Shown here: one piece after another, positions 8,214 to 23,631 of the stretch
How positions within the stretch are numbered: the stretch's first letter is position 1
Layout of the letters: every line of letters begins with the position of its first letter
Origin: Acholeplasmataceae bacterium
GTDB taxonomy: Bacteria; Bacillota_I; Bacilli_A; Acholeplasmatales; Acholeplasmataceae
Reading direction: 5' to 3'
Assembly: GCA_021108415.1 (NCBI GenBank)
Contig: JAIOQX010000006.1
Location: 310,001 to 374,000, forward strand
Length of the DNA stretch: 64,000 bases
Program-made: the position numbers and the translations under genes
Notes under the pieces: model-generated
Told to the model about the DNA's origin: nothing
Seen by the model: only the letters and a program-made list of their open reading frames with translations
Databases searched by the model: none

Positions 8214-8304
8214 GGAGAAGTACTCAAGTGGCTAAAGAGGCGCCCCTGCTAAGGGTGTAGGCTGGGAAACTGGTGCGAGGGTTCAAATCCCTCCTTCTCC
8301 GCCA
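8214..8304 (+). tRNA. tRNA-Ser (anticodon GCU)
   Basis: The 91-nt class II tRNA has a 7-bp acceptor stem (GGAGAAG with CTTCTCC), discriminator G and encoded CCA. The anticodon loop CTGCTAA lies in an anticodon stem CCC/GGG, giving GCT, and a long variable arm (GTGTAGGCTGGGAAACTGGTGC region) is typical of serine tRNA. The T-arm is GAGGGTTCAAATCCCTC. It is co-transcribed with tRNA-Glu 8 bases downstream. Confidence 0.95.
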
Positions 8305-8312
8305 TCGTTAAT

Positions 8313-8388
8313 GGCCCGTTGGAGAAACGGTTAACTCACATGCCTTTCACGCATGCACTCACGGGTTCGAACCCCGTACGGGTCACCA
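8313..8388 (+). tRNA. tRNA-Glu (anticodon UUC)
   Basis: 76 nt. The acceptor stem is GGCCCGT with ACGGGTC (one G-T pair), discriminator A and encoded CCA. The anticodon loop CTTTCAC gives TTC; the T-arm is ACGGGTTCGAACCCCGT. Its last 12 bases (TACGGGTCACCA) recur at 10740-10751, and in part at 14652-14663, so the 3' end has apparently served as an integration site. Confidence 0.95.
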
Positions 8389-8450
8389 ATATAATCATAA
8401 AACAGCTCATTTAGGATAATAAATGGGCTTTTTATATGGAGTTTTATATA
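8377..8450 (+). repeat. direct repeat copy 1: tRNA-Glu 3' tail plus terminator
   Basis: These 74 bp are identical to 10740-10813. The repeat starts inside the tRNA-Glu acceptor stem and covers CCA, spacer, terminator and about 16 bases beyond. I read it as the left boundary (reconstituted tRNA plus left end) of an integrated segment. Confidence 0.85.
8404..8434 (+). terminator. terminator of the tRNA transcript
   Basis: AGCTCATTTA and TAAATGGGCT pair (one wobble) around GGATAA, followed by TTTTTAT. An identical copy lies at 10767-10797. Confidence 0.8.
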
Positions 8451-8917
8451 GTTTAAATAATTTTTGGCAGCAATTTTATTTCAAATTTACCAATATGAGG
8501 ACAATAATTAATAGAAGATCTATTTTATTTAAAAAACTATTAAATTTATGACCATATAAGTAAAATTTTATCTAGATGTTAGAAATTCATCTTAAGTTTT
8601 AAAAAATCATCTATAAACATGACTTATATTAATGTAAGTTTGGATGTTTTTTTGTTATGCTAAAAGAATATGCTTTATAAAAATCACAAATCACATTTTT
8701 TAGGTTTTACACAATTGATTCGTATATATATGTAGCAGCTTATTTTAATAAATTGTAATAAGAAGATATTCCTATCATGATAATGCAGAATAATTGAAAT
8801 TATCATGATTTGTTCTTTTCTAGAGCATAAAAATATAGACTCTACGAAATAGATACATATATAATGAATCAGCCTATATATTTATGTGTTACAATTAGTA
8901 CGAGTGGGGTGCATACG
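8451..8917 (+). other. 467-bp region before the XRE gene
   Basis: No protein gene seen. It contains a perfect 11-bp inverted repeat (listed separately) and an AT-rich segment ending in TTATGTGTTACAAT, a possible -10 region just before the XRE gene. A similar sequence precedes the decayed copy of that gene at 21717. Confidence 0.5.
8774..8809 (+). repeat. 11-bp perfect inverted repeat upstream of the XRE gene
   Basis: ATCATGATAAT (8774-8784) and ATTATCATGAT (8799-8809) around a 14-nt spacer, followed by TTGTTCTTTTCT. It could act as a terminator or as an operator for the adjacent XRE regulator. Confidence 0.55.
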
Positions 8918-10588
8918 ATGTCGATATCTGAAAATATTAAAATATTAAGATTACAAAAAAACATGACACAAAAAGAACTTGGAGATTCGCTTCATATAAC
9001 TGATAAAACCATAAGTAAATGGGAAAACGGAAGAAGTGTTCCTGACATCTATATGATAAAGAAAATAGCTATTGTTTTTGATGTCAATTATGAAATTATA
9101 GTTGAAGGACAAGCGTATAATCAAAAAAACAAAAATATTGGAAATTTGATTAAATGCTTTATTTCTGAAAATAAGAAATTTGTGGTGCTTTCAATTATAT
9201 TAATTTCATTACTTATAGCACTTAGTTTTCTACCACCAAAGATAGCATTATTTGTTGGAATATTAGCAGCAACAGCCTATATCATATATTTAATGATTTC
9301 AACATCTAAGTGGTATATTATCAGTTTATTGGTAATTTTAATTGAAGTTGGAATGCTTACGGATAATTATTTTGACAATAATTTAGGATATATTGTTATC
9401 TTGTTAATATTTGTGACACTTATTTTAATAGGTATCCGAACATTTAAATTTAAAAAGAATAGAGATATCCACGTGGAGTATAGTTTTTTAGGAAACTGGA
9501 ATATAATCATTGCTTCAATTATCTTAATTATAGCCTTCAAAGTTGAGTATAAAGGTCAAATTAATGATGTAAAAATGATAGTAAGTAGATACCCTTATTT
9601 TTACATATATATGCTTGCTTTTATCGGACTTATTATTTTGAATCAATACTTTTTAAATAATAGAGTCTATAGAGAAAAAGTCATATTGTTTATCAAAAGA
9701 AGAATTTTAATAGTTATAGTATCTACACTCGTAATTGTTACACTATCAACCATTGGAGTGACTGGGTTAAGTCTCGCAAAAGATCACGTTTATACTAAAA
9801 GTATATATGCTTGGAAATCTTATTATAGAGATGATTTTACAAGTGAACAAATAAATGAATTAAATAGTACTTATGGAGAAGACAATGTTACATTATTCAG
9901 ATACGTAGAAGTAACTACAGATTTACAAGTTTATGCATATACTTCAAATTTTATAGACAATGGTGTCATTGCTTTTGATATACGGAGATTAACACATATT
10001 GAAAAACCGATTTTATTGTATGGAAAAATTTGGAATAAAGATTCAAATGATAAAGTTGTTGTGATTGATAAGGATACAGCTATAAATCAATTTGGCAAAG
10101 TTAATGTTGTGGGAAAAGATTTAATGATAAATAATCAAAAATGGGATATCATTGGTGTAGTATCTAACACGACTTCAGCCAAGGCAAATATAGATAGAGC
10201 GATTTCAAATGGCATAGATCCTAGTGAAATTCAAAGTGATTCATATGTCTATGTGCCATACTATTTTAAAGATTTTGAAGCATTTGAAATTGCTGAAGAA
10301 AAGCATGATGCATTTATCATTAATACTCAAAAACTAATGTCTACAAAGAAGGATGCTAATCCAATCATTGATATCTTAGTTGATGGAAACAATTATGATT
10401 CTGATTTCAACTATGGTGATAGATTAATAAAAATAGGGATCACAACAGGAAGCGATGTAGTCTATGAATATCTTAGTTTAAGAAAAGGATTACTGTTAAG
10501 TACAAGTCTATTGGTAATTTTTATTGGAAGCGTCGAACTATTACCGTATGTAAAAAGAAGTAAAAGTATTTTTCCAAAAAAAAAATAA
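8918..10588 (+). CDS. XRE-type HTH fused to membrane domain and MacB-like extracellular domain
   Basis: Putative membrane-bound regulator of 556 residues. ATG 8918 is chosen because GTGGGGTG lies just upstream and the protein then begins directly with the HTH (MSISENIKILRLQKNMTQ); an in-frame ATG at 8864 adds 18 poorly fitting residues. Residues about 7-61 are a typical Cro/CI HTH (TQKELGDSLHITDKTISKWENG). About seven membrane segments follow (residues 80-300). Then comes an outside domain of some 220 residues with features of MacB periplasmic core domains (KVVVIDKDTAINQFG, then KWDIIGVVSN). One final membrane helix precedes a basic tail. It is the only gene in cassette 1. Ligand and target are unknown; the dyad at 8774-8809 is a candidate operator. 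Confidence 0.75.
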   Translation: MSISENIKILRLQKNMTQKELGDSLHITDKTISKWENGRSVPDIYMIKKIAIVFDVNYEIIVEGQAYNQKNKNIGNLIKCFISENKKFVVLSIILISLLIALSFLPPKIALFVGILAATAYIIYLMISTSKWYIISLLVILIEVGMLTDNYFDNNLGYIVILLIFVTLILIGIRTFKFKKNRDIHVEYSFLGNWNIIIASIILIIAFKVEYKGQINDVKMIVSRYPYFYIYMLAFIGLIILNQYFLNNRVYREKVILFIKRRILIVIVSTLVIVTLSTIGVTGLSLAKDHVYTKSIYAWKSYYRDDFTSEQINELNSTYGEDNVTLFRYVEVTTDLQVYAYTSNFIDNGVIAFDIRRLTHIEKPILLYGKIWNKDSNDKVVVIDKDTAINQFGKVNVVGKDLMINNQKWDIIGVVSNTTSAKANIDRAISNGIDPSEIQSDSYVYVPYYFKDFEAFEIAEEKHDAFIINTQKLMSTKKDANPIIDILVDGNNYDSDFNYGDRLIKIGITTGSDVVYEYLSLRKGLLLSTSLLVIFIGSVELLPYVKRSKSIFPKKK

Positions 10589-10662
10589 CTACAAATATCG
10601 AGTTATACGGTTTGATTTATTAATATATTTAGTATTGATTCTAATCAATAAAGTATATTTAA

Positions 10663-10751
10663 GGTCACCAAAACTACCAGTGAAATAAAGATATCCATAA
10701 CAGTCTAGACTGAAATACACTGCTATTAGTGTGAATACCTACGGGTCACCA
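10663..10751 (+). repeat. 89-nt terminal block, copy A
   Basis: Aligns without gaps to 14575-14663 with 65 of 89 positions identical (hand count). Both copies keep GTCACCA near the start, an inverted pair CAGTG (positions 16-20) and CACTG (56-60), and end in TACGGGTCAxCA, the tRNA-Glu 3' tail. Interpreted as the right end of an integrated cassette. Confidence 0.75.
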
Positions 10752-10813
10752 ATATAATCATAAAACAGCTCATTTAGGATAATAAATGGGCTTTTTATAT
10801 GGAGTTTTATATA
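10740..10813 (+). repeat. direct repeat copy 2: tRNA-Glu 3' tail plus terminator
   Basis: 74 bp identical to 8377-8450, including the hairpin terminator (10767-10797) but only the last 12 bases of the tRNA. Similarity continues weakly past the repeat (TTAAATAA). It marks the end of cassette 1 and the beginning of cassette 2. Confidence 0.85.
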
Positions 10814-10934
10814 TATTAAATAACTTTTTAAATAATAGTTTTATAGATTTTTGGATCGTATGTATAAAGTTTTCAATAAATTTAATATAAGATCTTAAGA
10901 TTGTAAAACTTATAACAAAATAATTAAAACTATC

Positions 10935-11235
10935 ACCAGGCGAAGAAAGTCCATAATAAGTCTATAAAATGTGTATAAAAAGGTAACTTATGCTGATATA
11001 AATTTTCGATAATACTTTAAGTGCTTGACCTAGCAGCTGCTCTTTTAGAATAAACAACAACGAGCGGTCCCATAAGTAATAGCAACTTACGATATATAGA
11101 GCATTACAAATCTCTTTAAGCCGTGTCATAATTTCTGTGTTTTGACATAAAAATTCGGACTTTTGGCTTGAACATCGGCTCAAGACAAGCATTCTCCATC
11201 ATGCTTATACCCATAAAAGCATCTTGTGCCATGAG
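10935..11235 (-). pseudogene. possible decayed coding remnant
   Basis: The minus strand here is less AT-rich than the surrounding spacer. It reads in protein-like fragments across frames (one starting MAQDAFMGISMMENACLEP and running about 38 codons to a stop, another running 76 codons). No single intact frame, no ribosome-binding site and no recognised family. It could be an eroded gene or simple non-coding DNA. Confidence 0.25.
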
Positions 11236-11304
11236 AATTTATTTTAAAACTATTCATTCTTTGATATAATATAAGAAAGTGAATTAAAAAGGGGAGGTAA
11301 ATAC

Positions 11305-14300
11305 ATGAAAAAAAGCTTAATTATCATTTTTACAATTGTAATGATTATTGTAATGAGTGGGTGTGAACCAAACGATAACCTAGAAGACCAACCACCAATT
11401 GAAAGTAAGTACTCTATTGATGATTTCTATAATGAGATTGTTGTTATTGAAGAAAGATTAGATGAACTTACTGATGGTGAAGAGGTAGAAGCTAGTCGTT
11501 CATTTTTTGATTACAATCTTAAATTAGTATCAGGGACAAAGAAATTAACTAGAGATGAGTTGTACAATAATCGTGATGAAAGTGATATTGTTTCAGAAGA
11601 CTATTTAGAACAGTTGATCAATACAAGAATGTTTATTGAGGGTATTAGAAATATTATTGAAAATGCCGAAGAGGATATACAGCTTGGTGTCCGCTTTGAA
11701 ATAGAGACGGAAGAACTAGGGCAATTCGTAGGTGTTGAACAAGGGGAGTACAAGTTTGTACTCGCCGAAGATGGATATGTATTAATTGAATCTTTAACTG
11801 AATATGGGAGCCATCAGTATTTGAAAACAGGAATAGAAGATGACATCTTAGAGTGTTCAAGTTTGCACCATTCATACAATGGTGGTAGTTCAAAACCTAG
11901 TGATAATCCAGAGATGCACTTTAATTACTTCACATTTACAGAAGGTGAAGATGCTGTCTACATTAATTATCTAGGTGATAACTCATCATTAAGGTATACC
12001 AGTATAGAAGAAAACCGCCAGTTCACTATCTCTAGTGGTGCTGGTATGGTTGAAGGACCAACTCCACTTGATGGATATAACTTATCAGTATATGATAGTG
12101 AAACAAATGTTAGAACGCATATTGAAGTAGCAGAAGGCGTTGTAGTTGGAGAATATTATTTGGTTCTTGATGATCTTGGATCTGTCTTTTCATACGATGG
12201 TGGAAGTTATTTAGAAGGTACAATCAAATTACAAGTCAATGCACTAAATGCTACAGGATGGGATTACGCAATTGTTCCAGAAAGTGGTGTGAATGACGAA
12301 ATAAACGAAGTGATTGGTCTATATGACAATGAAGATAACCAGTTATATAATGGTAGAGTAAATTATAATGATTCTCCCGGTAATGGATTTATGGGAATCT
12401 GGCTAGAGTTTACAGAATATGAAGAAATCAACGATGAGGTACTCTCTTTGAATATGCTTGGAATTGATCTTGATCATCCAAAAGCAAACAAGGCATTTTT
12501 AGATCAGATAAGAATACATGATTTACAAGGTATAGAAGAAGCGACACAAATTGAAGGATTGGACTTCTTTGCTTCAGATTTACATGGTGAACTATACGAT
12601 TATATCGATCAAGATATTAGAAACGATTTAGAAGGAGTAGTGAGTGATCCTATCATTACCGAAGGTGACGTTGAAGAGTTCAATCAAGCTATGGCTATGT
12701 TTAATGAAAACCTAGACCAAGATCAAAAATTTGAACTATCAAGCAACACAACAATAGAGATCAAGGATGGAGCATCATTACTTTCCTCTTCAACAACTAG
12801 AATAACCATAACTTACGACCTAGAGCAAAGATACTTTAGATTCAATACGCTTACAGATAATGCATATAATGATCAATATACTTATTATTTATTCAATAAT
12901 GAACATGGGCTTCTAGAGTATGAAATAGAGAATCCTATGGGGACTACCGATGTTGTCGATAAAGATTCCTCAGAACAAGCATTCTTAGATGCTGTAAGTG
13001 AGTTTATAGGAGATGAATCTGCGACAGATGGTGTTAAAGAAATTACCAAAAATAGCGATACAGAGTTTGAACTTGTTGTAACTTCACAATACTTCAACAC
13101 AGGTGGTGTTGATGTGGTGAAACTATATGAACAAGCAGGTATAAGAGGATTTGAAGACCAGGAAGTGACGATTCTAATTGAGTTTAGTGAAGACTTCACT
13201 GCTTATGAAATATCTTATACAATTTATGGATTAGAAACCATAGGTGAAGAAGCTTATGAAGTGTCTATAGAATCATCACAAACAACGGAAATTGTTGACA
13301 CAATAAATTATATTGATCCTAATGAGTTATCTGGTTTGTATTGGTACTTCCCACAATCTAAGGATGGAATTACTACCTTTATAACACTAGAAGCATACAA
13401 TCAGATTGGATATTTCAATCGTGGTGTAAACTGGTTTGGCATTGATGCTACCGAATTAGGAGATTATAAAGTTACTATAGGTAATAATTCATCATTGGAA
13501 TTTACAGTATATGATAAAGATGGGAACACAGTAGAATTGCTAGGTAATACATTCACATCTACATATATAGGTAAGTATTATATTGAATATTATGCAGATT
13601 ATCCAGAAATGGGAAACGTCAGTGTATTGTTTTCAGCAACACCAGAACACATAGTAATTACACTTGATAATAATGGTGGTGTTGAAAATATAAATTATGT
13701 ACCAGATGGCAACAATCATTTTAGGATTATTGTTCCTGAAAGCGATCAAGACCGTATCTTAAGATTTGAAAGTGAAATCTTAGGAGACCATGAATATGTA
13801 CATTATTATATTTACGATCCTCATGCAGGTGAAGAAGGCCATATTTATAATGGGGAAGCGTTTAACTTAGATGATAAATATATGGATGATGAATGTATAT
13901 TCTATATACCAAAAGGAGAACTGTATGAGTTTTGGACAGGAGGTTCTGAAGAACCGTTTGAATTTATTCTCACATACACTTTCATAGAGATGAATGATGA
14001 GTTCCAAAGAGATCCAATTACGCTATCTCACTACACAGAAGAGTTCTTTACTTGGTATAATGAAGATAATTTAGAATCTTTTGTTTATTTCACTGTTGAC
14101 GAAGATGGACTATATGTTCTAGATATGACATATAACCAGTTTGATCGTGGTTATGTAAATGCTGAGGTATATACTTCAGAAGGAACAATGATTAATGATG
14201 AATGGAGCTCTTCAATCAACCTAACAGCAGGAGATTATTATATTCGTTTCACATTTGATGACAAAGGTGGGTACACCCCATTTAAGGCAATCATCTATGG

Positions 14301-14325
14301 TGATATTTGGAAACGAGATATCTAA
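11305..14325 (+). CDS. large secreted lipoprotein with repeated beta-domains
   Basis: 1006 residues of unknown function. The signal peptide ends in a lipobox (VMSGC, Cys about residue 22), so it should be lipid-anchored on the outside by the Lgt pathway. The mature part is acidic and rich in Tyr, Asn and Gly. It seems to contain several beta-sandwich units; two near the C-terminus (around VNWFGIDATELGDYKVTIG and SFVYFTVDEDGLYVLDMTY) resemble bacterial pre-peptidase C-terminal (PPC) domains. GGGGAGG stands 9 bases before ATG 11305. It is the only intact gene of cassette 2 and has no intact neighbours in its transcript. A surface-binding role is a guess. Confidence 0.75.
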   Translation: MKKSLIIIFTIVMIIVMSGCEPNDNLEDQPPIESKYSIDDFYNEIVVIEERLDELTDGEEVEASRSFFDYNLKLVSGTKKLTRDELYNNRDESDIVSEDYLEQLINTRMFIEGIRNIIENAEEDIQLGVRFEIETEELGQFVGVEQGEYKFVLAEDGYVLIESLTEYGSHQYLKTGIEDDILECSSLHHSYNGGSSKPSDNPEMHFNYFTFTEGEDAVYINYLGDNSSLRYTSIEENRQFTISSGAGMVEGPTPLDGYNLSVYDSETNVRTHIEVAEGVVVGEYYLVLDDLGSVFSYDGGSYLEGTIKLQVNALNATGWDYAIVPESGVNDEINEVIGLYDNEDNQLYNGRVNYNDSPGNGFMGIWLEFTEYEEINDEVLSLNMLGIDLDHPKANKAFLDQIRIHDLQGIEEATQIEGLDFFASDLHGELYDYIDQDIRNDLEGVVSDPIITEGDVEEFNQAMAMFNENLDQDQKFELSSNTTIEIKDGASLLSSSTTRITITYDLEQRYFRFNTLTDNAYNDQYTYYLFNNEHGLLEYEIENPMGTTDVVDKDSSEQAFLDAVSEFIGDESATDGVKEITKNSDTEFELVVTSQYFNTGGVDVVKLYEQAGIRGFEDQEVTILIEFSEDFTAYEISYTIYGLETIGEEAYEVSIESSQTTEIVDTINYIDPNELSGLYWYFPQSKDGITTFITLEAYNQIGYFNRGVNWFGIDATELGDYKVTIGNNSSLEFTVYDKDGNTVELLGNTFTSTYIGKYYIEYYADYPEMGNVSVLFSATPEHIVITLDNNGGVENINYVPDGNNHFRIIVPESDQDRILRFESEILGDHEYVHYYIYDPHAGEEGHIYNGEAFNLDDKYMDDECIFYIPKGELYEFWTGGSEEPFEFILTYTFIEMNDEFQRDPITLSHYTEEFFTWYNEDNLESFVYFTVDEDGLYVLDMTYNQFDRGYVNAEVYTSEGTMINDEWSSSINLTAGDYYIRFTFDDKGGYTPFKAIIYGDIWKRDI

Positions 14326-14574
14326 TTAAACAGCAATAGAAAATGGTGCTTTCAAGATTGAGAATACCATTTTTGATTTCTGATTTTCTTGCTATTATTG
14401 TGATGAGAGATTAAGAATTGAAACAAAACATTACTTATAATATATTAAGTAGAAATGTATTTAATATTGTGAATTAAATTGAATATGGTCAGAACACAAT
14501 TATAAGTTACAATTAAAAATGATATAACGAGTCGTATCACGAGAAATATCTTTCAATCAGTCTAAATATCACAA

Positions 14575-14663
14575 TGTCACCATATCTATCAGTGAAATAT
14601 AGATGTCCATATCGGGCTAGTCTGATAGTCACTGAAAAAAACGTGAGCCTCTACGGGTCAACA
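14575..14663 (+). repeat. 89-nt terminal block, copy B
   Basis: Same length as 10663-10751 and about 73% identical without gaps, ending in the tRNA-Glu tail TACGGGTCA followed by ACA. The CAGTG/CACTG inverted pair is kept in place. It is more diverged in the last third, suggesting an older insertion or a different cassette family. Confidence 0.7.
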
Positions 14664-14676
14664 TCGCTATCAGAAT

Positions 14677-14707
14677 CCCCATTTCTTATTTGAGATGGGG
14701 TCTTTTT
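14677..14707 (+). terminator. terminator after cassette 2 (tRNA-terminator-like)
   Basis: CCCCATTTC and GAGATGGGG (one wobble) with TCTTTTTATT after it. It occupies the same position relative to the tRNA tail as the terminators at 8404 and 10767 but has a different sequence. It may be the native chromosomal terminator of tRNA-Glu. Confidence 0.75.
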
Positions 14708-14811
14708 ATTACAGAGATAAGATTGTCTACTATGAAAGAAATATGGTAAAATTGTATAGATAAAAAAAATTATAAATAAAAGATATTGTATTTGGATAAA
14801 GAAGGTAAATT

Positions 14812-15738
14812 ATGGTTGAAAGAAAGATAAGAGATAATAATGAAAATATCCTACATCTATATATTTGGAATAAAGTAGATAACCCAATTGGAGTTATACA
14901 AATTGTCCATGGAATTAATGAGCATGGATTAAGGTATTGCAACTTTGCAGAGTACTTGAATAAAAACGGATATATAGTCTACCTTCATGATCAATTATCC
15001 CAAGGCAACAGTAGACGCAAAGAAGAAAATGTAGTGTATTTTGGTAAAAACGGAATAAACAATTTAAAAGTTGGAGTTGACTCTGTTTACAATGAGATAA
15101 AAACAGATTATCCTGATTTAAACATATATGCAATAGGGCATAGCTTGGGTTCTAGTGTACTTCGATCCTGTTTGATAGATAATAACTTAAAGTATCGAAA
15201 AGTTGTATTAAATGGTACAGGATTAACTTCTACAAGAGGTATGGGGATAATCATCATCATTGGAAGATTCTTAAAACTATTTGGGGCAAAAAAACCAAGC
15301 AAATTCTTTGATAATATATTCAGATCAACACAATTAAAACTTCGAGAAAAAGTAGAGATGAGCCACTTCATAGAGTGGCTAACTAGAGATAAAAAACAAA
15401 ATGAAATAGATAAATCTGACAAATACTTATATATTAGATTAAGTGTTAGTGTATTTGTGGACATGATAAAATTATTTAAACACGTTAATAAAAAACAAAA
15501 CATAGTTAAAATATCAAAAGACAATACGATTCTCTTGATAAGTGGCACACATGATCCAGCTACTAATTATGGAGATGAGACCAAAGCATTACATGAGCTT
15601 ATGAATTTATATCACATCGAGTCTAAATTATACTTGATAGATGAAGGAAGACATGATTCTTTTCAAGAAATAAATAAGATTGAAATATATAACGAAGTAA
15701 TCAAGTTTTTAAACAATAAAAAAGGAGTAAAGACTTAA
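14812..15738 (+). CDS. alpha/beta hydrolase, monoacylglycerol lipase/lysophospholipase type
   Basis: Predicted serine hydrolase of 308 residues, probably cytoplasmic (no signal peptide). It has the oxyanion-hole motif VHGINEH (about residues 29-35), the nucleophile elbow GHSLGS (about 109-114), the acid in SGTHDPATNYGD and the catalytic histidine in DEGRHDSFQE. This order is that of the Hydrolase_4 (serine aminopeptidase S33-like) family, which includes lysophospholipases. It is the first gene after the tandem cassettes. The AAAGGAG near its 3' end lies too far upstream to serve proC directly. Confidence 0.85.
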   Translation: MVERKIRDNNENILHLYIWNKVDNPIGVIQIVHGINEHGLRYCNFAEYLNKNGYIVYLHDQLSQGNSRRKEENVVYFGKNGINNLKVGVDSVYNEIKTDYPDLNIYAIGHSLGSSVLRSCLIDNNLKYRKVVLNGTGLTSTRGMGIIIIIGRFLKLFGAKKPSKFFDNIFRSTQLKLREKVEMSHFIEWLTRDKKQNEIDKSDKYLYIRLSVSVFVDMIKLFKHVNKKQNIVKISKDNTILLISGTHDPATNYGDETKALHELMNLYHIESKLYLIDEGRHDSFQEINKIEIYNEVIKFLNNKKGVKT

Positions 15739-15769
15739 AGTGATTCATATCGCATTTGTTACACTTTAA
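15735..15769 (+). other. inverted repeat overlapping the hydrolase stop codon
   Basis: TTAAAGTG (15735-15742) and CACTTTAA (15762-15769) around 19 bases, immediately before proC. It may be a weak terminator or a structure affecting proC translation; no T-run follows. Confidence 0.4.
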
Positions 15770-15784
15770 ATCTTAAATGATAAT

Positions 15785-16585
15785 ATGAATCTAAACATAG
15801 GATTTATAGGAGTAGGGAATATGGCAAAGGCCATATTCGATTCACTTGTAAAGAGCACACATCAATTACCGACATCCATTTATCTATATGATATTGATCT
15901 TAAAAAGACTTTAAATTTAAGCAAAGCACATAATGTCAATGTTGCAAAAAGTATAACAGAAATTGCATCAACATGTGATGTCATTGTATTAGCGGTTAGA
16001 CCACATGAACTAGATTCTGTTTTTGATGAGCTATCTTTAGTTTTAAAAAACCAAATCTTATTTTCAGTTGCAGTTGGTATTACCTTAGACAAATTGAGGA
16101 CACTAGCAAAGAAAGATGTGACTATAGTAAGAACAATGCCAAACATAGGAGCAATGATCGGTAGAAGTGTAACATCTTATTGTGTTAATAAAGAAGTATC
16201 AAAAGATGAATCAATAATTATTGATACATTTCTTAATTCATTTGGAAAAGCAATAGAAATTAAAGAAGAAAAATTTGATGAGTTTACAGCATTATGTGGA
16301 TCATCACCAGCATTTTACTTAGAGATAATGGAGTCAATGATAAATTATGGATTAGACAGTGGCTTTACATATGATGCTGCAGTAAAGATGGTATCAGAAT
16401 CTATGATCATTTCAGCTGAATTACTTCAAAAATCAACATTAAAAACAGATGAACTTATAAAAAAAATAGCAACTCCAGGTGGCACAACCGCCGCTGGCCT
16501 CAAGGTTTTAAATAAGTATGGCATAAATAAAATAATCACTGAAACTCTGCAAACAACAGCCAGAGAGTCTAAAAAAACCAAGTAA
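15785..16585 (+). CDS. proC: pyrroline-5-carboxylate reductase
   Basis: NADPH-dependent last step of proline synthesis. The 266-residue protein starts with the Rossmann motif GFIGVGNMAKAI (about residues 5-16) and has the conserved TMPNIG, CGSSPAFY and PGGTTAAGLKVL motifs of the family. The N-terminal glycine motif leaves no alternative start, yet no clear ribosome-binding site precedes ATG 15785; a hairpin lies just upstream. No proA or proB is near, so it may serve salvage, or the other steps are elsewhere. It follows the hydrolase by 46 bases. Confidence 0.94.
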   Translation: MNLNIGFIGVGNMAKAIFDSLVKSTHQLPTSIYLYDIDLKKTLNLSKAHNVNVAKSITEIASTCDVIVLAVRPHELDSVFDELSLVLKNQILFSVAVGITLDKLRTLAKKDVTIVRTMPNIGAMIGRSVTSYCVNKEVSKDESIIIDTFLNSFGKAIEIKEEKFDEFTALCGSSPAFYLEIMESMINYGLDSGFTYDAAVKMVSESMIISAELLQKSTLKTDELIKKIATPGGTTAAGLKVLNKYGINKIITETLQTTARESKKTK

Positions 16586-16734
16586 GTCACATCACTGAAA
16601 AAATTAATCTATTCAGATTGCTAAAGTATCATGTATTCAAAACTATCAGTTGTTTTGAAAATCCTAAATGTCTTATTATGTATGTGGGAGAATTCATGCA
16701 TAAACTAAACAAAAAAAATCAAGGAGGTATTATT

Positions 16735-17091
16735 ATGGCAACGGCAGTATTACAAGGTAGAGGGTGTATAGAAGATATTGTTTCAGTTTTAGAAGATAAT
16801 ATATCAAAATCTGGAATAACCAATCAACTGATTTACAAGGCGAAGCGAGGAGTAGAAGATTCTTCAAGTTATTTATTGGTATTTGAGAAGTTCTATTATA
16901 GAAACTCAAGTAGAGCGAGTCTTTCGATTATGGTAACTGAAGTTGATGAAATAATTACAGTGGATGTTGCTGGCAGTGGTGGAGGTCAAGGTGTAATTTT
17001 CAGATTTAATTGGGGTGCAGAATCAAATTTTGTAAGTTTGGTGAGTGACGCTCTATTAGGGTTAGGTTTTAAAGTTATTTCAAGTTCGTAA
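16735..17091 (+). CDS. DUF6054-like small protein
   Basis: 118 residues from ATG 16735, chosen because AAGGAGG stands 7 bases upstream; the frame is open back to 16618 but without such a site. The sequence shows VFEKFYYRNSSRASLS, DVAGSGGGQGVIF, FNWGAE and a final ALLGLGF segment. From memory this resembles the DUF6054 proteins of Clostridia, small alpha/beta proteins of unknown role; I could not check that match. No signal peptide or membrane segment. It stands alone, followed by a 470-bp gap with a terminator. Confidence 0.65.
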   Translation: MATAVLQGRGCIEDIVSVLEDNISKSGITNQLIYKAKRGVEDSSSYLLVFEKFYYRNSSRASLSIMVTEVDEIITVDVAGSGGGQGVIFRFNWGAESNFVSLVSDALLGLGFKVISSS

Positions 17092-17571
17092 AAAAGCAAA
17101 GAGCCAAAAACCGATAAAAGAAGATTTATTATTGGGTTTATGATAGTTTCGATATTAAGTGTATTTTGTAATATGATATAAGATTTTTTAAACTAAAGAT
17201 AAATATATGTATTAACAATTCACAATTAATATTAAACAGAAGATATCCTTAAAAAGCTATTTCTTCAATTTAAGTAGATATTCACTAATTACACAACCTA
17301 ACCTAAAACCAAACCTAGGTTAGGTTTTTAGATACTATTATTACACATTGATTAAAGATCTATTAAACCAATAAAAGAGATAGTCCATAAAACTATGTTA
17401 AATCGTAATAAAAAGAATCAAGCATGAATAGCAAAAAAAGAATAATAAATTCAATGAATCAAGGAGTTATGGAAAGCTATGATTTTTGAACAATGAATCT
17501 TTATTGTATTACATATGTTATTGGTTATATAATGCTTATTGTGATATTCTATTTAATAAGAGGTGATAAAT
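17092..17571 (+). other. 480-bp gap with a terminator
   Basis: Apart from the hairpin at 17295-17329 and a TATAAT at 17528-17533 ahead of the PfkB gene, I see no gene or repeat here. Confidence 0.5.
17295..17329 (+). terminator. strong terminator
   Basis: AACCTAACCTA (17295-17305) and TAGGTTAGGTT (17316-17326) are perfect 11-bp arms, followed by a T-run. It lies about 200 bases beyond the DUF6054-like gene. Confidence 0.75.
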
Positions 17572-18468
17572 ATGAGAGCTTTAGTTTTAGGTACCGCAGG
17601 AGTTCAAGTTAATATACCAATTGAATCTTTTCCATATCATTACAAATCAATACATTTTATGGATGATAAAGTTGAAATGGATATCGCTGGTGTTGGATAT
17701 TCACACTTAAATATATTGGGAAAATTAGGAGACGAAGTTACTTTTTTAACAGGTATTGGAAATGATGTTTTTGGACAGGTAGTCAAACAAGCTATTATTA
17801 ACACAAATGCAAAATGTATTATTGAAAAAAAGGATAAAGCAACATTAGTTTCAACCATTTTATATGACAAAGAAGGGAATCGCTCTATTCTAAGAGAAGG
17901 TAGAAAAGATTATCTATATAAAATGAAACATGAAACATACAAGAACCTATCAGATGATTTTGATGTGGCATTGTTCTCAATGGCTGGATTCTCTAGAGAT
18001 TTACTACATGTTGTTAGCGCTAAAAAAATTCCAATCGCAACCGACTTGCAGGATGTTAGTAATTTATCAAATGAATATGGTAGAGATTTTATGAACTTAT
18101 CAGATATAATCTTTTTTAGCGATGACAACTTTAAAGGAGATATTCATTTACTTGTGTCTAACCTTTATAAAGAACATAACTATAAGATTATTGGTGTAGG
18201 ATTAGGCAATAAAGGGTGTTTGCTCTGTGAGAATGGTAATATACAATATTATCCAGCAATTTCTGTTAATGTTGTTAATACTGTTGGAGCTGGAGATGCA
18301 TTATTTGCATGTTTTATCCATTGTTATTTTAATGGTGATGATGCGGATACCGCAATTATGAAAGCACAAATTTTTGCATCAAATAAAATAAGATACAAAA
18401 CAGCATCACAAGGCTTCCTAGATAAAGAAACTTTAAATAACTTATATAAAGAGTATGATAAGGAGTAA
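17572..18468 (+). CDS. PfkB-family carbohydrate/nucleoside kinase
   Basis: Ribokinase-fold sugar or nucleoside kinase of 298 residues. ATG 17572 follows AAGAGGTG. N-terminal signature: DIAGVGYSHLNILGKLGDEV (about residues 37-56) then TGIGNDVFGQ. The C-terminal PfkB motif NTVGAGDALFACF (about 239-251) holds the catalytic Asp. The substrate cannot be told. Three bases after its stop comes a protein-kinase-like gene, so the two form a bicistron. I infer a linked function because the spacing is tight and the pair has no other close partner. Confidence 0.88.
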   Translation: MRALVLGTAGVQVNIPIESFPYHYKSIHFMDDKVEMDIAGVGYSHLNILGKLGDEVTFLTGIGNDVFGQVVKQAIINTNAKCIIEKKDKATLVSTILYDKEGNRSILREGRKDYLYKMKHETYKNLSDDFDVALFSMAGFSRDLLHVVSAKKIPIATDLQDVSNLSNEYGRDFMNLSDIIFFSDDNFKGDIHLLVSNLYKEHNYKIIGVGLGNKGCLLCENGNIQYYPAISVNVVNTVGAGDALFACFIHCYFNGDDADTAIMKAQIFASNKIRYKTASQGFLDKETLNNLYKEYDKE

Positions 18469-18471
18469 GCT

Positions 18472-19551
18472 ATGAATGATAGACAAAAAAAGCAAATGGA
18501 TTTTCATAATAGTAATGAAAATATTATTATAGGCGATCAATCTAAATTACCAATAAGTATAAATCTTTTGAAAGATCCTCTAAAATTAGAAGCATTAGGA
18601 TATGTAGAGAAAATCTTCGATAATGGATTAACTGCAACTGTCTATAAGTTGAAAATTGACAGTAAAACATATAATCTTAAGATTAAGAGAGAAACAAGTC
18701 TTGTCAAAAATATAGATGGACAAACATCCTATTTAAATGAAATACAAAGAAGAAGAGATTTTGAGATGTTTAGAAAATCAGATTCTATAATAGATGCTGG
18801 AATTGTAAAAACTATTTATGCAGACTATCGTCTAGGCATTATGTTATCTGATTGGATAGATGGGTTTGTACCAGTTAAATATACAAGGAAAATAATCAAA
18901 AATCTATTTAAGTTAACTTGGAACATAGAGAAGTATGGTGTAATGGAATGGGATTTATGTTCAGGTAATCTTTTAGTAAATGAACAAGAAGATATATTCC
19001 TATTTGATTTTGGATATATGTATTCCCATAATCCATTGACAGATTTTAATTCAGAAGGAAAGTCTAATCCATTATTTAATAGCGTAGAAAGGTTTGAAAC
19101 CCGAGCCTTTTTACCTTATTTGTTAAATATAAAAGATGAGAAAGATATATTAAAATTTTATAAAATAGAAAAGGAAGAAGCGGTTGAGATATTTAAAGAA
19201 AAAATTAAATGGCTCATAAGTAAAAATGCAGATGATGATATTATTGAAATGAATAAAATCGAATTAGATAAATGGAGCAACGCTTTAAAAAGCAAAAAAG
19301 CGTTAAAGAAACTTTATGCTTTAGAGTCTCTACGTTCATATGTATTAGACATACATGATGATATATCTGGAAAAAGTTGTTCGAAACATACAATTCAAAA
19401 GATTGATGTGGTAATGAAGATAATTAGTTCAAATCATGATTTCCTTTCAGAAAACAACGGATATCTATGGGATGATATAGGCTTATCAAAGATTGAATTA
19501 TTGGTAAAATATAATAATATTAGAGAACTTGCAAATAAATATCAATTGTGA
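18472..19551 (+). CDS. protein-kinase-like/aminoglycoside-phosphotransferase-like protein
   Basis: 359 residues, cytoplasmic. It has a kinase-like fold: a possible nucleotide-binding lysine in YNLKIKRE (about residue 64), then EWDLCSGNLLV (about 161-171), which matches the catalytic loop pattern D-x(4)-N, and LFDFGYMY (about 178-185), a DFG metal-binding motif. This arrangement is shared by lipopolysaccharide-kinase, RIO/ABC1 and aminoglycoside phosphotransferase families; I cannot place it further. AAGGAG lies before ATG 18472, inside the end of the PfkB gene. The C-terminal 130 residues are helical and charged with no recognised domain. Substrate, protein or small molecule, is unknown. Confidence 0.7.
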   Translation: MNDRQKKQMDFHNSNENIIIGDQSKLPISINLLKDPLKLEALGYVEKIFDNGLTATVYKLKIDSKTYNLKIKRETSLVKNIDGQTSYLNEIQRRRDFEMFRKSDSIIDAGIVKTIYADYRLGIMLSDWIDGFVPVKYTRKIIKNLFKLTWNIEKYGVMEWDLCSGNLLVNEQEDIFLFDFGYMYSHNPLTDFNSEGKSNPLFNSVERFETRAFLPYLLNIKDEKDILKFYKIEKEEAVEIFKEKIKWLISKNADDDIIEMNKIELDKWSNALKSKKALKKLYALESLRSYVLDIHDDISGKSCSKHTIQKIDVVMKIISSNHDFLSENNGYLWDDIGLSKIELLVKYNNIRELANKYQL

Positions 19552-19676
19552 TCTTGTGGGAATATAAAACTTACATTTAGATGGAATACTTGATATATGA
19601 TAAGTAATAAGTCGCAAATAAAAATAATCTAATGAGCCATATCACAAATAGTTGTAACTCTTGACATAAACACAAC

Positions 19677-19700
19677 AAAAAAGCCAGTTCAGGTTTTTCT
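19677..19700. terminator. possible bidirectional terminator
   Basis: AAAAGCC and GGTTTTT (one G-T pair) around AGTTCA, with A-run and T-run on either side. Confidence 0.45.
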
Positions 19701-19818
19701 TTTATAAAATACCAATAATCTATTGTAAAACGTGCTATAATATAATTATTGTAAATTAAATAAAACATTGTTTTTAATTTATGTAATAACATAAGATAAA
19801 TGTTGGGGGAGATATCAA

Positions 19819-20892
19819 TTGAAAAAACTAAAATCTAAAAAAATAAAAATTGTAACAAGATTTCTTATTGGAATAGTATTGGCATCAGTAATAACATTCG
19901 TTTATATACAACCAGTTCTTAGTAGGGGAACTCTAAAATATATTAAAGAGTTTTCAGATTATAAAGATAATGATTTTTACTTTAATAACAACAGTATGGA
20001 TATTACAATTCCTTCTACAGATAGAGGGCTGTCTTCTTATGAAACTTCTGATATTTTTTCGACTGATCTTAGTTTGATAAACACAATGAATACTGAGTGT
20101 TATTTTGTAAACACACCAGTCTATACAAAATGTAATGTGAATTATAATGAGTATCAGGTAAAAGTAAGACGTAATTTGAACTCGATAACATATAGTATTA
20201 AACAAGAAAATAAGCACATTGAGCTAAAGATGAATAAAGGTAAAGGTATGTCAGTTGAGACGAAATACTATAATGATGGAAAACCTAGTTCTACTACTTT
20301 TGCAGAATATGTTTATAATGATCACATGTATTCCTATGTAATTGCTGATGACAATGAATTGTATATGTATGAATATGTAGATGTTGAATTTGGGAAGTTG
20401 TTTGAATATGATAATAGGGGTGAATTAGGTCATGCGACAAACTACTATGATGTTGACAAACAAGTGAATTATTATGTAGAGTTTTATCCAAGAAATTTAG
20501 TGATTGATTACACAACTATAAAATACACAAATGAGTATAATAACATAGAGGCCTTAGTAAGTATAGATAGTCCACAATCATATAGGAAATTTCAAAGAGT
20601 AAGATGGAACTTACTTCATTTAGATAACGATAACATGATAAATGAATCTGATATCACATATATTGATGGTATGCCTTTCTATGATAAAGATATAGATTTA
20701 AACATCAGAACCAATGAGGATGATGTTTTGGTTTTGGATATCGATGGTCTTTTTAGTGATTTTTTTACAGATGAAATGATAGACACAGAAATAGATTATA
20801 TATTAAATAACTATGAAGCGTGGTATTTAGAGTATGGAATTACAGTCGATTCAACTACTTTTGACAGATACTATTATCCTGAGACAGATTAA
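19819..20892 (+). CDS. single-pass anchored extracytoplasmic protein, unknown
   Basis: 357 residues starting at TTG 19819, with GGGGGAG 10 bases upstream. A basic start (MKKLKSKKIKIVTR) and one membrane segment (about residues 14-32) precede a long hydrophilic domain rich in Tyr, Asp and Asn, with two close cysteines (NTECYF and YTKCNV) that could form a disulfide. No lipobox. I do not recognise a family. Two ~90-residue parts with YxxE/DY-rich strands suggest beta structure. Monocistronic. Confidence 0.65.
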   Translation: MKKLKSKKIKIVTRFLIGIVLASVITFVYIQPVLSRGTLKYIKEFSDYKDNDFYFNNNSMDITIPSTDRGLSSYETSDIFSTDLSLINTMNTECYFVNTPVYTKCNVNYNEYQVKVRRNLNSITYSIKQENKHIELKMNKGKGMSVETKYYNDGKPSSTTFAEYVYNDHMYSYVIADDNELYMYEYVDVEFGKLFEYDNRGELGHATNYYDVDKQVNYYVEFYPRNLVIDYTTIKYTNEYNNIEALVSIDSPQSYRKFQRVRWNLLHLDNDNMINESDITYIDGMPFYDKDIDLNIRTNEDDVLVLDIDGLFSDFFTDEMIDTEIDYILNNYEAWYLEYGITVDSTTFDRYYYPETD

Positions 20893-21089
20893 GCTATATT
20901 GATATATTCAATAATTAAAGAGATAAGGTTGGACTGTTGTGAAATAAACAGAAGGTATCTGGACATCAGATTTTAGTAAAGTTGAGATTCACACAGATAA
21001 TTGTTGATGTTAATCAATAAATGATAAAAATGATTTATTATTTTTATGTTATAATATAAAAAACTATTTCTATAAAGGGGGAACTAAAA

Positions 21090-21566
21090 ATGAAAGCTAC
21101 GATGAAATTGAAAATATGGGGTTTTACTCAATTGGCTATAGCAGTTCTACTGATAATTTTAGGTAGCACCGTTTTTCGAGATATAAGTTGGGACGGCATT
21201 ACTTGGAAGCCAAATTTTGCACTTTTTGTTCCAGGCATGTTTTTAGCCGTTTTATCTCTACCAATTATTGTATCGGGATTTAATCCACAAATTGTAAAGT
21301 TTGGATCTAAGTTACAGTCAGAAGTAATAGATTATGCAGGTGAAGATATGAGACAGGCAATTTCTAAGTCTGCACATACAGTAATACCAGCGGTAACACC
21401 ATCAATTAAGCAAGCTTTATCAGAAATTAAGAATGAAAAAACAAAAGATGAAGATGATTCAATAGAGGAAGAACTCATTGAAGCTAAAAAACTACTAGAT
21501 GATCACTTGATTAGTGAAGATGAATATAAACAAATGAGAAAAAGTATCCTTGGTATTAAATCCTGA
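21090..21566 (+). CDS. two-TM protein with C-terminal SHOCT domain
   Basis: 158 residues. Two membrane segments (about residues 12-28 and 45-65) are followed by a linker and a C-terminal SHOCT-type motif (EAKKLLDDHLISEDEYKQMR). SHOCT domains are short helical oligomerisation modules found on many unrelated bacterial proteins; the role here is unknown. GGGGG precedes ATG 21090. A strong terminator follows at 21662. Confidence 0.75.
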   Translation: MKATMKLKIWGFTQLAIAVLLIILGSTVFRDISWDGITWKPNFALFVPGMFLAVLSLPIIVSGFNPQIVKFGSKLQSEVIDYAGEDMRQAISKSAHTVIPAVTPSIKQALSEIKNEKTKDEDDSIEEELIEAKKLLDDHLISEDEYKQMRKSILGIKS

Positions 21567-21661
21567 TAGTCTACTTTATAAACATACTTAAAGGCGATAT
21601 CAAGAATTATAAAGGATATAAAAAGATATAGCAGAATATATGAAATTATTAAATGATCAAG

Positions 21662-21691
21662 AGTTCTTCTCATCATCGAGAAGAACTTTTT
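21662..21691 (+). terminator. strong terminator
   Basis: AGTTCTTCTC and GAGAAGAACT are perfect 10-bp arms around ATCATC, followed by TTTTTCTT. Confidence 0.85.
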
Positions 21692-21716
21692 CTTATGTAC
21701 AAATATATATTGGTCG

Positions 21717-21815
21717 ACCTATAATATTTATGTGATACAATAAAAACTAGTAGGGTGTATATGATTTAGAAATTTGCAAATATTAAGATTAAAAATACAT
21801 GACACAAAAAGAAAT
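21717..21815 (+). pseudogene. decayed 5' fragment of an XRE gene like 8918
   Basis: The stretch with ATTTATGTGATACAAT, then GTAGGGTGTATATGATTTAG and AATATTAAGATTAAAAATAC, parallels 8875-8980 upstream and downstream of the XRE start, down to ACATGACACAAAAAGAA, which is identical in both. Frame is lost after the start region and the rest of the gene is missing. The matching upstream sequence shows that promoter and leader were copied too. Confidence 0.7.
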
Positions 21816-21938
21816 TTTACGATAATTGAAGAATATTTGGATACCTTAACAAAAGATGATGTTTTTCATTTCAAAGTTAATGAATCCATTAAATGAATAA
21901 GTATATAATATAAATAGTATTGAAGAGAGGTCTTTTCT

Positions 21939-22700
21939 ATGAACAAAGCTTATATCACAGGTATCACAGGTACGGTAGCACCATATCTAAAAGTCGAGTT
22001 AGAGAAAAACGGGTATAAAGCATATGATAAACATATTAGAATTAATGATGACTCTGATATTTCTTTATCGATAGATTATCTTAGAGAAGTTAAACCCAAT
22101 ATTGTTTTTCATTTAGCTATGGGAAGCAAAAAATGGGCAGAAGCACTATCAAAATACTGTTTTGATCATAACATTATTTTTGTTTACATCTCGACTGCAT
22201 CTGTTTTTGAAGATAATGCAGGTGGACCTTATAGGAAAGACACCGTTGTTACAGTGACTAACGATTATGGCGCATATAAGTATGCATGCGAGAATCTAGT
22301 AAGAAAGGTTAATCAAAATGCGTATGTTTTACGTATCGGTTGGCAGATCTCTGATAAAGCTGATATGACATCTAACAATATGTTCCACTTTATCAAAGAT
22401 CAATTAGATCAATATGGATCTATTCATGTAAGCACCTGTTTTTATCCATCTGTATCGTTTTTAAATGATACAGTAAAAGCGATCAGAACAACTATAGAGA
22501 ATAATCCTGCGGATTTATACTTAATTAATAGTAATGATACTTTATCACTTTATGATATCATCCAAGCACTAAAGACTAGATTTAATAAAGAATGGAAGAT
22601 ACAGGGTAATCAAGATTTATGTAGAAATGATATCATGATTGATGAGCGCGTACAAATTGTAAAGCTAAAAGAGATTTATGATTTATTTATGCTTAAATAG
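21939..22700 (+). CDS. RmlD-like NAD(P)-dependent sugar epimerase/reductase
   Basis: 253-residue short-chain dehydrogenase of the extended/atypical type. It has a glycine motif GITGTVAPYL (about residues 8-17), the catalytic Ser region ISTASVFEDN, and the YxxxK pair in YGAYKYACE (about 110-118). Overall organisation follows dTDP-4-dehydrorhamnose reductase (RmlD) and related proteins, but no rhamnose or nucleotide-sugar genes are nearby, so the substrate is open. GAGAGG precedes ATG 21939. Confidence 0.8.
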   Translation: MNKAYITGITGTVAPYLKVELEKNGYKAYDKHIRINDDSDISLSIDYLREVKPNIVFHLAMGSKKWAEALSKYCFDHNIIFVYISTASVFEDNAGGPYRKDTVVTVTNDYGAYKYACENLVRKVNQNAYVLRIGWQISDKADMTSNNMFHFIKDQLDQYGSIHVSTCFYPSVSFLNDTVKAIRTTIENNPADLYLINSNDTLSLYDIIQALKTRFNKEWKIQGNQDLCRNDIMIDERVQIVKLKEIYDLFMLK

Positions 22701-22818: not shown

Positions 22819-23631
22819 ATGAAATACTTAAAAATGAATAACGGATTAACTATACCTGTACTAGGCACTGGTACAAATACTTTTGGAAAAGAAAATAATG
22901 ATTTTTTTGCCAAGATCACCTATGATACTAAAGAACTCTCCTCTGCAATCAAACTAGGTTATAGATTAATAGATACTGCTATCTATTATCGCAATGAAGC
23001 AGTTATTGGTAAAGCAGTTAGGGAATCAAACATTGATAGAAGTGAATTTTTTATCACATCCAAAATTCCTGAGAAAAAAGAATTTATTGAAACAGATGAA
23101 TCTGTTAAATATCATGTAGAACAATCGCTTAAAGCTTTGGATATAGGTTATATTGATCTATATTTAATGCATTTTCCACTTGAAACTAACCAAGAGAACT
23201 TAAGAGTGTGGCGCGTATTAGAGGAATTTGTAAAAAGAGGTCTTATTAAATCGATTGGTGTGTCTAATTTTAATGAAGATCAACTAGCATATTTGATAAA
23301 GCATGCAAGTATTAAACCTGTACTTAATCAGTTCCAATCATATCCAGGTAAGCATCAACAATCATTAATAGATTTTTGTAAAGCTAATGATATTATTCCT
23401 GAAGCATATCAATCACTTGCTAAAATAGATGTTAAAATTAAAGAAGTATTGATCAAACTTGCTAAGCCATATAAGAAAACATGGAGTCAGGTTGTTTTAA
23501 ATTATCAAATCAATGAAGGTTTAGTCGTGATTCCTAAATCACATAGTAATCAACACCAGTTTGAAAATTTCGATGTATTTGATTTTAAATTAACCAATAA
23601 AGATATAGAAACTATAAAAGCTATGTGTTAA
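22819..23631 (+). CDS. aldo/keto reductase
   Basis: NADPH-dependent carbonyl reductase with a TIM barrel, 270 residues. The catalytic tetrad is visible: Asp in GYRLIDTA, Tyr in YYRNE, Lys in ITSKIPEK and His in LMHFP. The family signatures IGVSNFNEDQL and VIPKSHSNQHQFEN (cofactor site) are present. It resembles the 2,5-diketogluconate reductase/YtbE-type group; the true substrate is unknown. AAAGGAC precedes ATG 22819, and a TATAAT lies near 22790. Confidence 0.9.
   Translation: MKYLKMNNGLTIPVLGTGTNTFGKENNDFFAKITYDTKELSSAIKLGYRLIDTAIYYRNEAVIGKAVRESNIDRSEFFITSKIPEKKEFIETDESVKYHVEQSLKALDIGYIDLYLMHFPLETNQENLRVWRVLEEFVKRGLIKSIGVSNFNEDQLAYLIKHASIKPVLNQFQSYPGKHQQSLIDFCKANDIIPEAYQSLAKIDVKIKEVLIKLAKPYKKTWSQVVLNYQINEGLVVIPKSHSNQHQFENFDVFDFKLTNKDIETIKAMC

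Follow-up and report, generated by a model that had tools for sequence, protein, structure and literature searches.

The 3' end of the tRNA-Glu gene in this Acholeplasmataceae bacterium (assembly GCA_021108415.1, contig JAIOQX010000006.1) is followed by two successive segments that start with copies of the tRNA tail and contain no recombinase, which raises the question of whether they are mobile gene cassettes and, if so, which enzyme might move them. To address this, we analyzed a stretch of 64,000 nucleotides around the locus (hereafter the window) together with the whole 1.78-Mb genome and the genomes of relatives, which are designated by G numbers below. The original prediction had inferred mobile one-gene cassettes stacked at tRNA-Glu and served by an enzyme encoded elsewhere, and this interpretation was supported by the comparison of genomes. 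It had, however, suggested looking for a tyrosine recombinase, while the evidence described below points to large serine recombinases.

ARAGORN placed tRNA-Ser(GCT) at 8214-8304 (+) and tRNA-Glu(TTC) at 8313-8388 (+), and the same order of tex, tRNA-Ser and tRNA-Glu was observed in the relatives fetched. The block at 8377-8465 recurs at 10740-10828 with 97% identity over 89 nt, of which the first 74 nt are identical, and only these two full copies of the 89-nt left block are present in the whole genome (E 5e-41 and 4e-37, with the next hit at E 0.02). The right-end blocks preceding positions 10740 and 14652 align over ~89 nt and both end in TACGGGTCA(C/A)CA. An HMM built from homologous blocks of relatives scored these blocks (10663-10751 and 14575-14663, both +) at 66.6 and 67.4 bits, respectively (nhmmer, E ~1e-18), although the first of the two was among its 35 seeds. 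Own-genome hits of the blocks in other sequence were chance matches.

These boundaries define cassette 1 (8377-10739, +, 2363 bp) and cassette 2 (10740-14651, +, 3912 bp), whose left ends are 97% identical. The left end of cassette 1 (P' arm, 8379-8465, +) restores the acceptor end of the tRNA and brings a terminator, while the crossover TA is placed at 8377-8378 after the tRNA arm (B arm), at 10740-10741 after the P arm of cassette 1, and at 14652-14653 after the P arm of cassette 2. Each cassette holds one long ORF on the tRNA strand and no recombinase. The cargo gene of cassette 1 (8864-10588, +) encodes a 574-aa protein with HTH_3, membrane and MacB_PCD parts, homologues of which are cargo in other arrays (G006, G021 and G046), whereas that of cassette 2 (11305-14325, +) encodes a 1006-aa lipoprotein without a Pfam match. 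The region originally delimited, which ended at 14707, takes in the terminator after the last tail, but the recombination point is at 14652. A third copy of the tRNA tail with one mismatch is followed by a terminator that resembles another type of cassette left end (14652-14712 for tail and terminator, +) and is probably the start of an older unit whose right end has decayed. The rest of the variable region (14812-22700, +), including hydrolase, ProC-like, DUF6054, PfkB, kinase-like and other genes, was not found at this place in the four genus mates examined. The far side of the hotspot is marked by a conserved chromosomal aldo/keto reductase gene (22819-23631, +), which is 75-85% identical and located downstream of the array in G001, G002, G003 and G004.

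Comparison with relatives revealed that this arrangement is not confined to the window. In Acholeplasmataceae, and in at least one more family of the order, the site 3' of tRNA-Glu holds 0 to 5 or more cassettes with the same right-end block. Exact TACGGGTCACCA occurred in 75 of 88 family genomes, a count that includes the tRNA-Glu genes themselves, against one hit for the reversed pattern. The right-end block was represented by 35 seed copies (nhmmer E down to 2e-22), and we found 67 distinct right ends, 34 tRNA junctions and 53 complete cassettes of one to five genes (A/B-type median 2.25 kb), with coding almost all in the direction of the tRNA (29,843 versus 699 aa). Hits of the junction pattern outside Acholeplasmataceae (Bacteroidetes, Burkholderiales, Brevibacterium and Holophagae) were attributed to chance because they match little beyond the pattern itself (13-17 bits, against 60-80 for most true blocks), and no exact junction was found in viral contigs. 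The cargo includes Fic, ParE, RhuM, HepT/MNT-like and Phd/YefM proteins as well as matches to models of candidate defence systems, which marks the site as a place to look for conflict systems in Mollicutes.

The variability of the site was also apparent from empty and partially filled loci. An empty site is present in G037, which resumes where the insertions of G041 end. In G051, tRNA-Glu directly joins the sequence to the right of the 2307-bp G041 cassette, although the G051 contig with this cassette-free junction is short (3785 bp) and its ends are permuted. Interestingly, one whole cassette is 91.6% identical over 2228 bp between G006 and G021, two genomes of different genera whose tex regions are only 77% identical, which indicates horizontal transfer.

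None of the cassette arrays contained a tyrosine integrase. In contrast, pairs of tandem large serine recombinases were found inside the hotspot in four genomes of three genera (G001, G004, G049 and G027), on larger elements with the same block at their right ends. An SCC-type Cch helicase (NF047345 SCCmet_Cch1) accompanied the pair in G001, G004 and G027 (E 4e-45 to 6e-47; E 4e-45 to 4e-49 for the autonomous elements overall), HTH_56 was detected in G004, G049 and weakly in G027, and RadC in G004. The Cch scores (155-168 bits) are far below the curated cut-off (700), and the CcrB/CcrA models match unrelated prophage serine recombinases of these genomes equally well, so that only Cch, gene order and location tie the element to SCC. 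Such helper elements were found in only 6 of 160 genomes of the order, and two of these (G025 and G106) are unresolved as to site. The genome of the window itself has no Resolvase-domain protein (no PF00239 hit), and its cassettes lack Cch.

The anatomy of the junctions resembles that of serine recombinase sites, with the centre CCCG-TA-CGGG. The motif learnt from P arms at offset 16 scored best on tRNA-Glu at offset 11 in 7 of 10 tRNA variants, and 31% of the P' arms had their best match at offset 16 against 3% after shuffling. This 5-bp shift, which places the distal motif nearer the centre on tRNA-Glu than on the cassette arm, is the published difference between attP and attB for serine integrases (PMC3783163). 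Since the tRNA arm is essentially one sequence, the shift rests on few independent observations, and about half of the left arms (49 of 101) fit the motif best elsewhere (offset 7), because type-1 and window-type left arms carry TATGA, CATGA or CATAA at the expected place. A minority of right ends (class C) look like copies of the tRNA arm and are not explained by the simple scheme.

Taken together, the window holds part of a chromosomal array of mobile gene cassettes, which are precise units, are shared between genera and have a common right-end block. For their movement we infer, with fairly high confidence but without having observed recombination, circles or junction reads, that a pair of large serine recombinases encoded with the Cch helicase on a larger element that uses the same site excises a cassette as a circle by joining its right arm (P) to its left arm (P') at the central TA, and then inserts circles at the TA of the tRNA-Glu 3' end. 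In this scheme the incoming left arm restores the acceptor end (CGGGTCACCA) and supplies a terminator, so that the tRNA stays functional and the older cassettes are pushed away from it. Most cassettes, including both in the window, carry no recombinase and would move in trans like recombinase-less SCC elements. Because the genome of the window lacks such an enzyme, its array is probably stranded until a helper element arrives.

Among the alternatives, the possibility that the cassettes are served by a different recombinase and share only the site with the Cch elements appears unlikely. Prophage pairs of large serine recombinases, which are more common in these genomes than the Cch-linked pair, would be candidates, but they lie elsewhere and next to phage integrase modules, while the Cch-linked pair lies within the array in all four resolvable cases, with the 89-nt block at the end of the element. 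Slightly less probable is that these are ordinary genomic islands moved by a tyrosine integrase of a prophage or ICE that has since been lost. tRNA 3' ends are classic sites for such islands, the genomes carry several phage integrases, and filamentous prophages with a tyrosine integrase are integrated next to this tRNA pair in G007. However, the G007 prophage repeat begins in tRNA-Ser and lacks the 89-nt block, no integrase family follows the arrays, G003, G036 and G105 have hardly any besides Xer, and the symmetric motif spacing fits serine recombinases. Moreover, no tyrosine integrase was seen in the four known helper elements with this block. A true integron or integron-like array, in which a tyrosine recombinase recognises the 89-nt block as a folded single strand (attC), is very unlikely, even though short cassettes in one orientation with a conserved ~89-nt element at the right end and toxin-antitoxin cargo are integron-like. 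The Xer pair is the only tyrosine recombinase family common to the array genomes, the other integrases seen there being prophage-type modules and a tandem pair at a sugar locus. RNAalifold of 35 blocks on both strands found no long hairpin, only a short invariant core repeat of 4-6 bp (GTGA..CC/GG..TCAC) without compensatory changes in the four GTGA/TCAC pairs. A one-off tandem duplication of the tRNA-Glu 3' region, which could have produced the 97% repeat, is refuted by arrays with different content in many species, empty sites and a cassette shared across genera.

The evidence also leaves room for a broader reading, which we consider about as likely as not, in which the site is a serine-recombinase counterpart of the integron: a standing cassette platform at tRNA-Glu in Acholeplasmatales, where an SCC-like helper with two large serine recombinases moves a shared pool of one- to five-gene cassettes in trans across genera and families, with cassettes added at the tRNA-proximal end. 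The papers we searched, which did not cover most of the subscription literature, describe no such system in Mollicutes. It would extend the cassette-chromosome way of life to wall-less bacteria and to a tRNA site, and it offers a natural two-component system of helper pair plus minimal cassettes with many comparable att sites, in which the question of how recombinase-less SCC elements move and gather becomes testable.

The closest known systems are the staphylococcal cassette chromosome (SCC, SCCmec) and its ccr-less pseudo-SCC forms, with which the arrays and their helper elements share large serine recombinases (which the Ccr models do not separate from those of prophages) with a Cch (DUF927) helicase, insertion at the 3' end of a conserved gene that stays functional, tandem composite arrays and elements without recombinase (PMC7581432, PMC10061031). 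On the other hand, the site is the tRNA-Glu 3' end with the centre CCCGTACGGG and not the 3' end of rlmH with the core TATCATAA (PMC6222049, PMC10061031), the cassettes are mostly 0.4-5 kb and far smaller than typical SCC elements, the proteins are distant (sub-cut-off matches), and the hosts are Acholeplasmatales. The Enterococcus cassette chromosome (PMC6222049) likewise represents SCC-like elements outside Staphylococcus with ccrAB, dyad-symmetric att sites and variable cargo, but it sits at rlmH, its elements measure 21-78 kb, and tandem ECCs with several ccr were not seen. Integrons and CALINs also form arrays of short co-oriented gene cassettes without a recombinase, each ending in a conserved element, while the arrays described here have no IntI, no folded attC and a double-strand type site with a central TA. 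The ssrA-specific genomic islands of Dehalococcoides (PMC3146451) combine a CcrB-like serine recombinase with insertion at the 3' end of an RNA gene and multiple tandem islands, only 16 of 31 of which carry the integration module, but no Cch was listed in the parts of that study consulted, they use the tmRNA gene and one large plus one small recombinase (DsiB and DsiA), the characterised vcr islands are ~12 kb, and they belong to a different phylum.

The repeat and block structure of the original prediction, in which two successive segments begin with the tRNA-Glu 3' tail and a terminator and end in related blocks, was confirmed. tRNA-Glu lies at 8313-8388, and the first 89 nt from position 8377 recur at 10740 with 97% identity, the first 74 nt being identical, while no other full copy was found in the 1.78-Mb genome. 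The two right ends are related over about 89 nt and end in the tRNA tail. Each of the segments has one long gene on the tRNA strand.

To investigate which organisms carry this arrangement, we examined the corresponding place in related genomes (designated G followed by a number). The gene tex and the pair tRNA-Ser/tRNA-Glu keep their order in nearly all relatives fetched, so the same place could be read in about 18 genomes, while in two more the contig ends there. Behind tRNA-Glu the tail recurs once or several times in G001, G002, G003, G004, G006, G019, G021, G036, G042 and G055. A scan of 84,980 species with a 20-nt junction pattern found 25 stretches, of which about 21 lie in records of Acholeplasmataceae, 'Tenericutes' or Bacillota MAGs, including Acholeplasma equifetale, Peloplasma aerotolerans, strain zrk7 and strain MO-XQ, while the four others are chance matches that lack the rest of the block. 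Within the order, 20 of 160 genomes have an exact match, three of them in a second family, where tRNA-Glu with cassettes was confirmed.

Comparison of these genomes indicates that the array is mobile, even though no recombination reaction was seen. Within one genus (g12), G037, which is 97.7% identical upstream, has an empty site, while G041 has a 2307-bp cassette plus further insertions, and in G051 tRNA-Glu is joined to the sequence found to the right of that cassette in G041, although the G051 contig is short and permuted. Interestingly, one cassette is 91.6% identical over its whole 2228 bp between G006 and G021, which belong to different genera and are only 77% identical in the tex region. 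The cassettes next to tRNA-Glu differ between the window and its nearest relative, G004. The conserved gene on the far side, an aldo/keto reductase at 22819 in the window, lies about 60 kb from tRNA-Glu in G004. The region 14.7-22.7 kb of the window is probably an older part of the array with lost boundaries. A GntR regulator plus ABC transporter set lies beyond the hotspot in the window (24557-26779, minus strand) but inside an array cassette in G004 (locus L087:1891-4122; 66% identity for the ATPase), hinting at exchange between chromosome and cassettes. A 345-aa protein at 27202-28239, located outside the window's hotspot, is 46% identical over 209 aa to one in the G003 array (near C1:81221). 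In G000 (C3:40001-60000, locus L024) a displaced stretch with boundaries near 51.8 and 57.6 kb on the minus strand was noticeable, which has two degenerate tRNA-Glu-tail/terminator junctions but no tRNA. It carries GIY-YIG-like, macro-domain and ADP-ribosylglycohydrolase-like genes, named by eye only, as well as proteins also found in the tRNA-Glu hotspot of G004, and is possibly part of the array moved by a rearrangement.

In total, 53 complete cassettes of 0.4-5.7 kb were delimited, with a median of 2.25 kb for the A/B type, and coding by ORFs of at least 90 aa runs in the tRNA direction for 29,843 aa against 699 aa. The left end restores the acceptor end CGGGTCACCA and brings a terminator. 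The right end is a block with consensus GGTCACCAAAACTATACGTGAAATAAAGATATCTATATCAGTCTAGTCTGATAGACACTGAAAAAAACGTGAACCCC, followed by TACGGGTCACCA, while variant B has CTCGG...CGTGAACCAG. Identity between all junctions starts at TA, the centre of the palindrome CCCG-TA-CGGG in tRNA-Glu. A motif (CAGTG, CCGAG or CCGTG) lies 17 nt from TA on the right arm, and a weight matrix of this motif (offset 16) scores best on the tRNA arm at offset 11, 5 bp nearer, in 7 of 10 tRNA variants. On left arms its best match is at offset 16 in 31% of cases against 3% after shuffling. A distal motif 5 bp nearer in attB than in attP is the published rule for serine integrases (PMC3783163). The part of the block more than ~25 nt from TA is conserved as well, and a second recombinase or an accessory protein may bind there. 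A minority of right ends (class C, such as those at loci L066:4484, L068:7538, L071, L076:7125, L092 and L095) do not fit this pattern and look like the T-arm half of tRNA-Glu (attB-like) instead of the 89-nt block. The 35 blocks examined for folding do not share a long hairpin, although these seeds were chosen by their core and the invariance of the core pairs is thus partly by selection.

No tyrosine integrase is in any cassette array, and none of the integrase families in these genomes follows the arrays. Tyrosine recombinases were observed in other settings, among them two identical stretches 12.9 kb apart in G000 (C1:427283 and 440224, loci L032 and L033), each with a 289-aa phage-type integrase, which represent a duplicated prophage or an assembly repeat. 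Two adjacent tyrosine recombinases upstream of nucleotide-sugar genes (G000 C2:354481-355907, loci L034 and L035; also L114, L115 and L125) are conserved in several relatives and mark a possible switch or insertion site at a surface-sugar locus. In G007, tandem 9.65-kb prophages with a Zot-like gene and a tyrosine integrase lie beside the same tRNA pair (loci L083 and L090), but their repeat starts in tRNA-Ser and each copy carries a complete tRNA-Glu, while one integrase copy is broken.

In contrast, large serine recombinases (LSRs) do occur in the hotspot as tandem pairs, at C1:92164 and 93690 in G004, C1:99837 and 101348 in G001, and C50:28312 and 29832 in G049, as well as on C1 of G027, whose contig runs from tRNA-Glu through a further boundary to the LSR pair and a right-end block at 32024. 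These elements also encode a Cch-like helicase (NF047345 in G001, G004 and G027; HTH_56 in G004, G049 and weakly G027), and in G004 a RadC-family protein and DUF3846. Homologues of the second LSR exist in 6 of 160 genomes, four of them in the array, while the remaining two are not resolved (contig L207 of G025, which carries no tail, and a contig of G106). The window's genome has no Resolvase-domain match. Since models for CcrB and CcrA match unrelated prophage LSRs just as well, the tie to SCC rests on Cch, gene neighbourhood, site use and array habit.

The 105 cassette proteins include Fic (6), HTH_3 (6), MacB_PCD (4), HD domain (3), RhuM (3), ParE (3), CopG-type RHH (3), HepT-like and nucleotidyltransferase (2 each), Phd/YefM (2) and AAA_21/AbiEii-like (2) proteins as well as ABC transporters, and matches to the PADLOC models SoFic, PDC-S05 and PDC-S23. 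The gene of the window's first cassette belongs to the recurrent HTH_3+MacB_PCD family.

SCC and ECC at rlmH (PMC7581432, PMC10061031, PMC6222049) and the ssrA islands of Dehalococcoides (PMC3146451) share the logic of a large serine recombinase (whose role here is inferred), the 3' end of a conserved gene, tandem arrays and members without the recombinase. What differs here is the tRNA-Glu site, the very small cassettes, the long conserved right end, the spread over two families of Mollicutes and the rarity of the helper, and we therefore regard the array as a variant of this known type of system rather than as a member of SCC in the strict sense.
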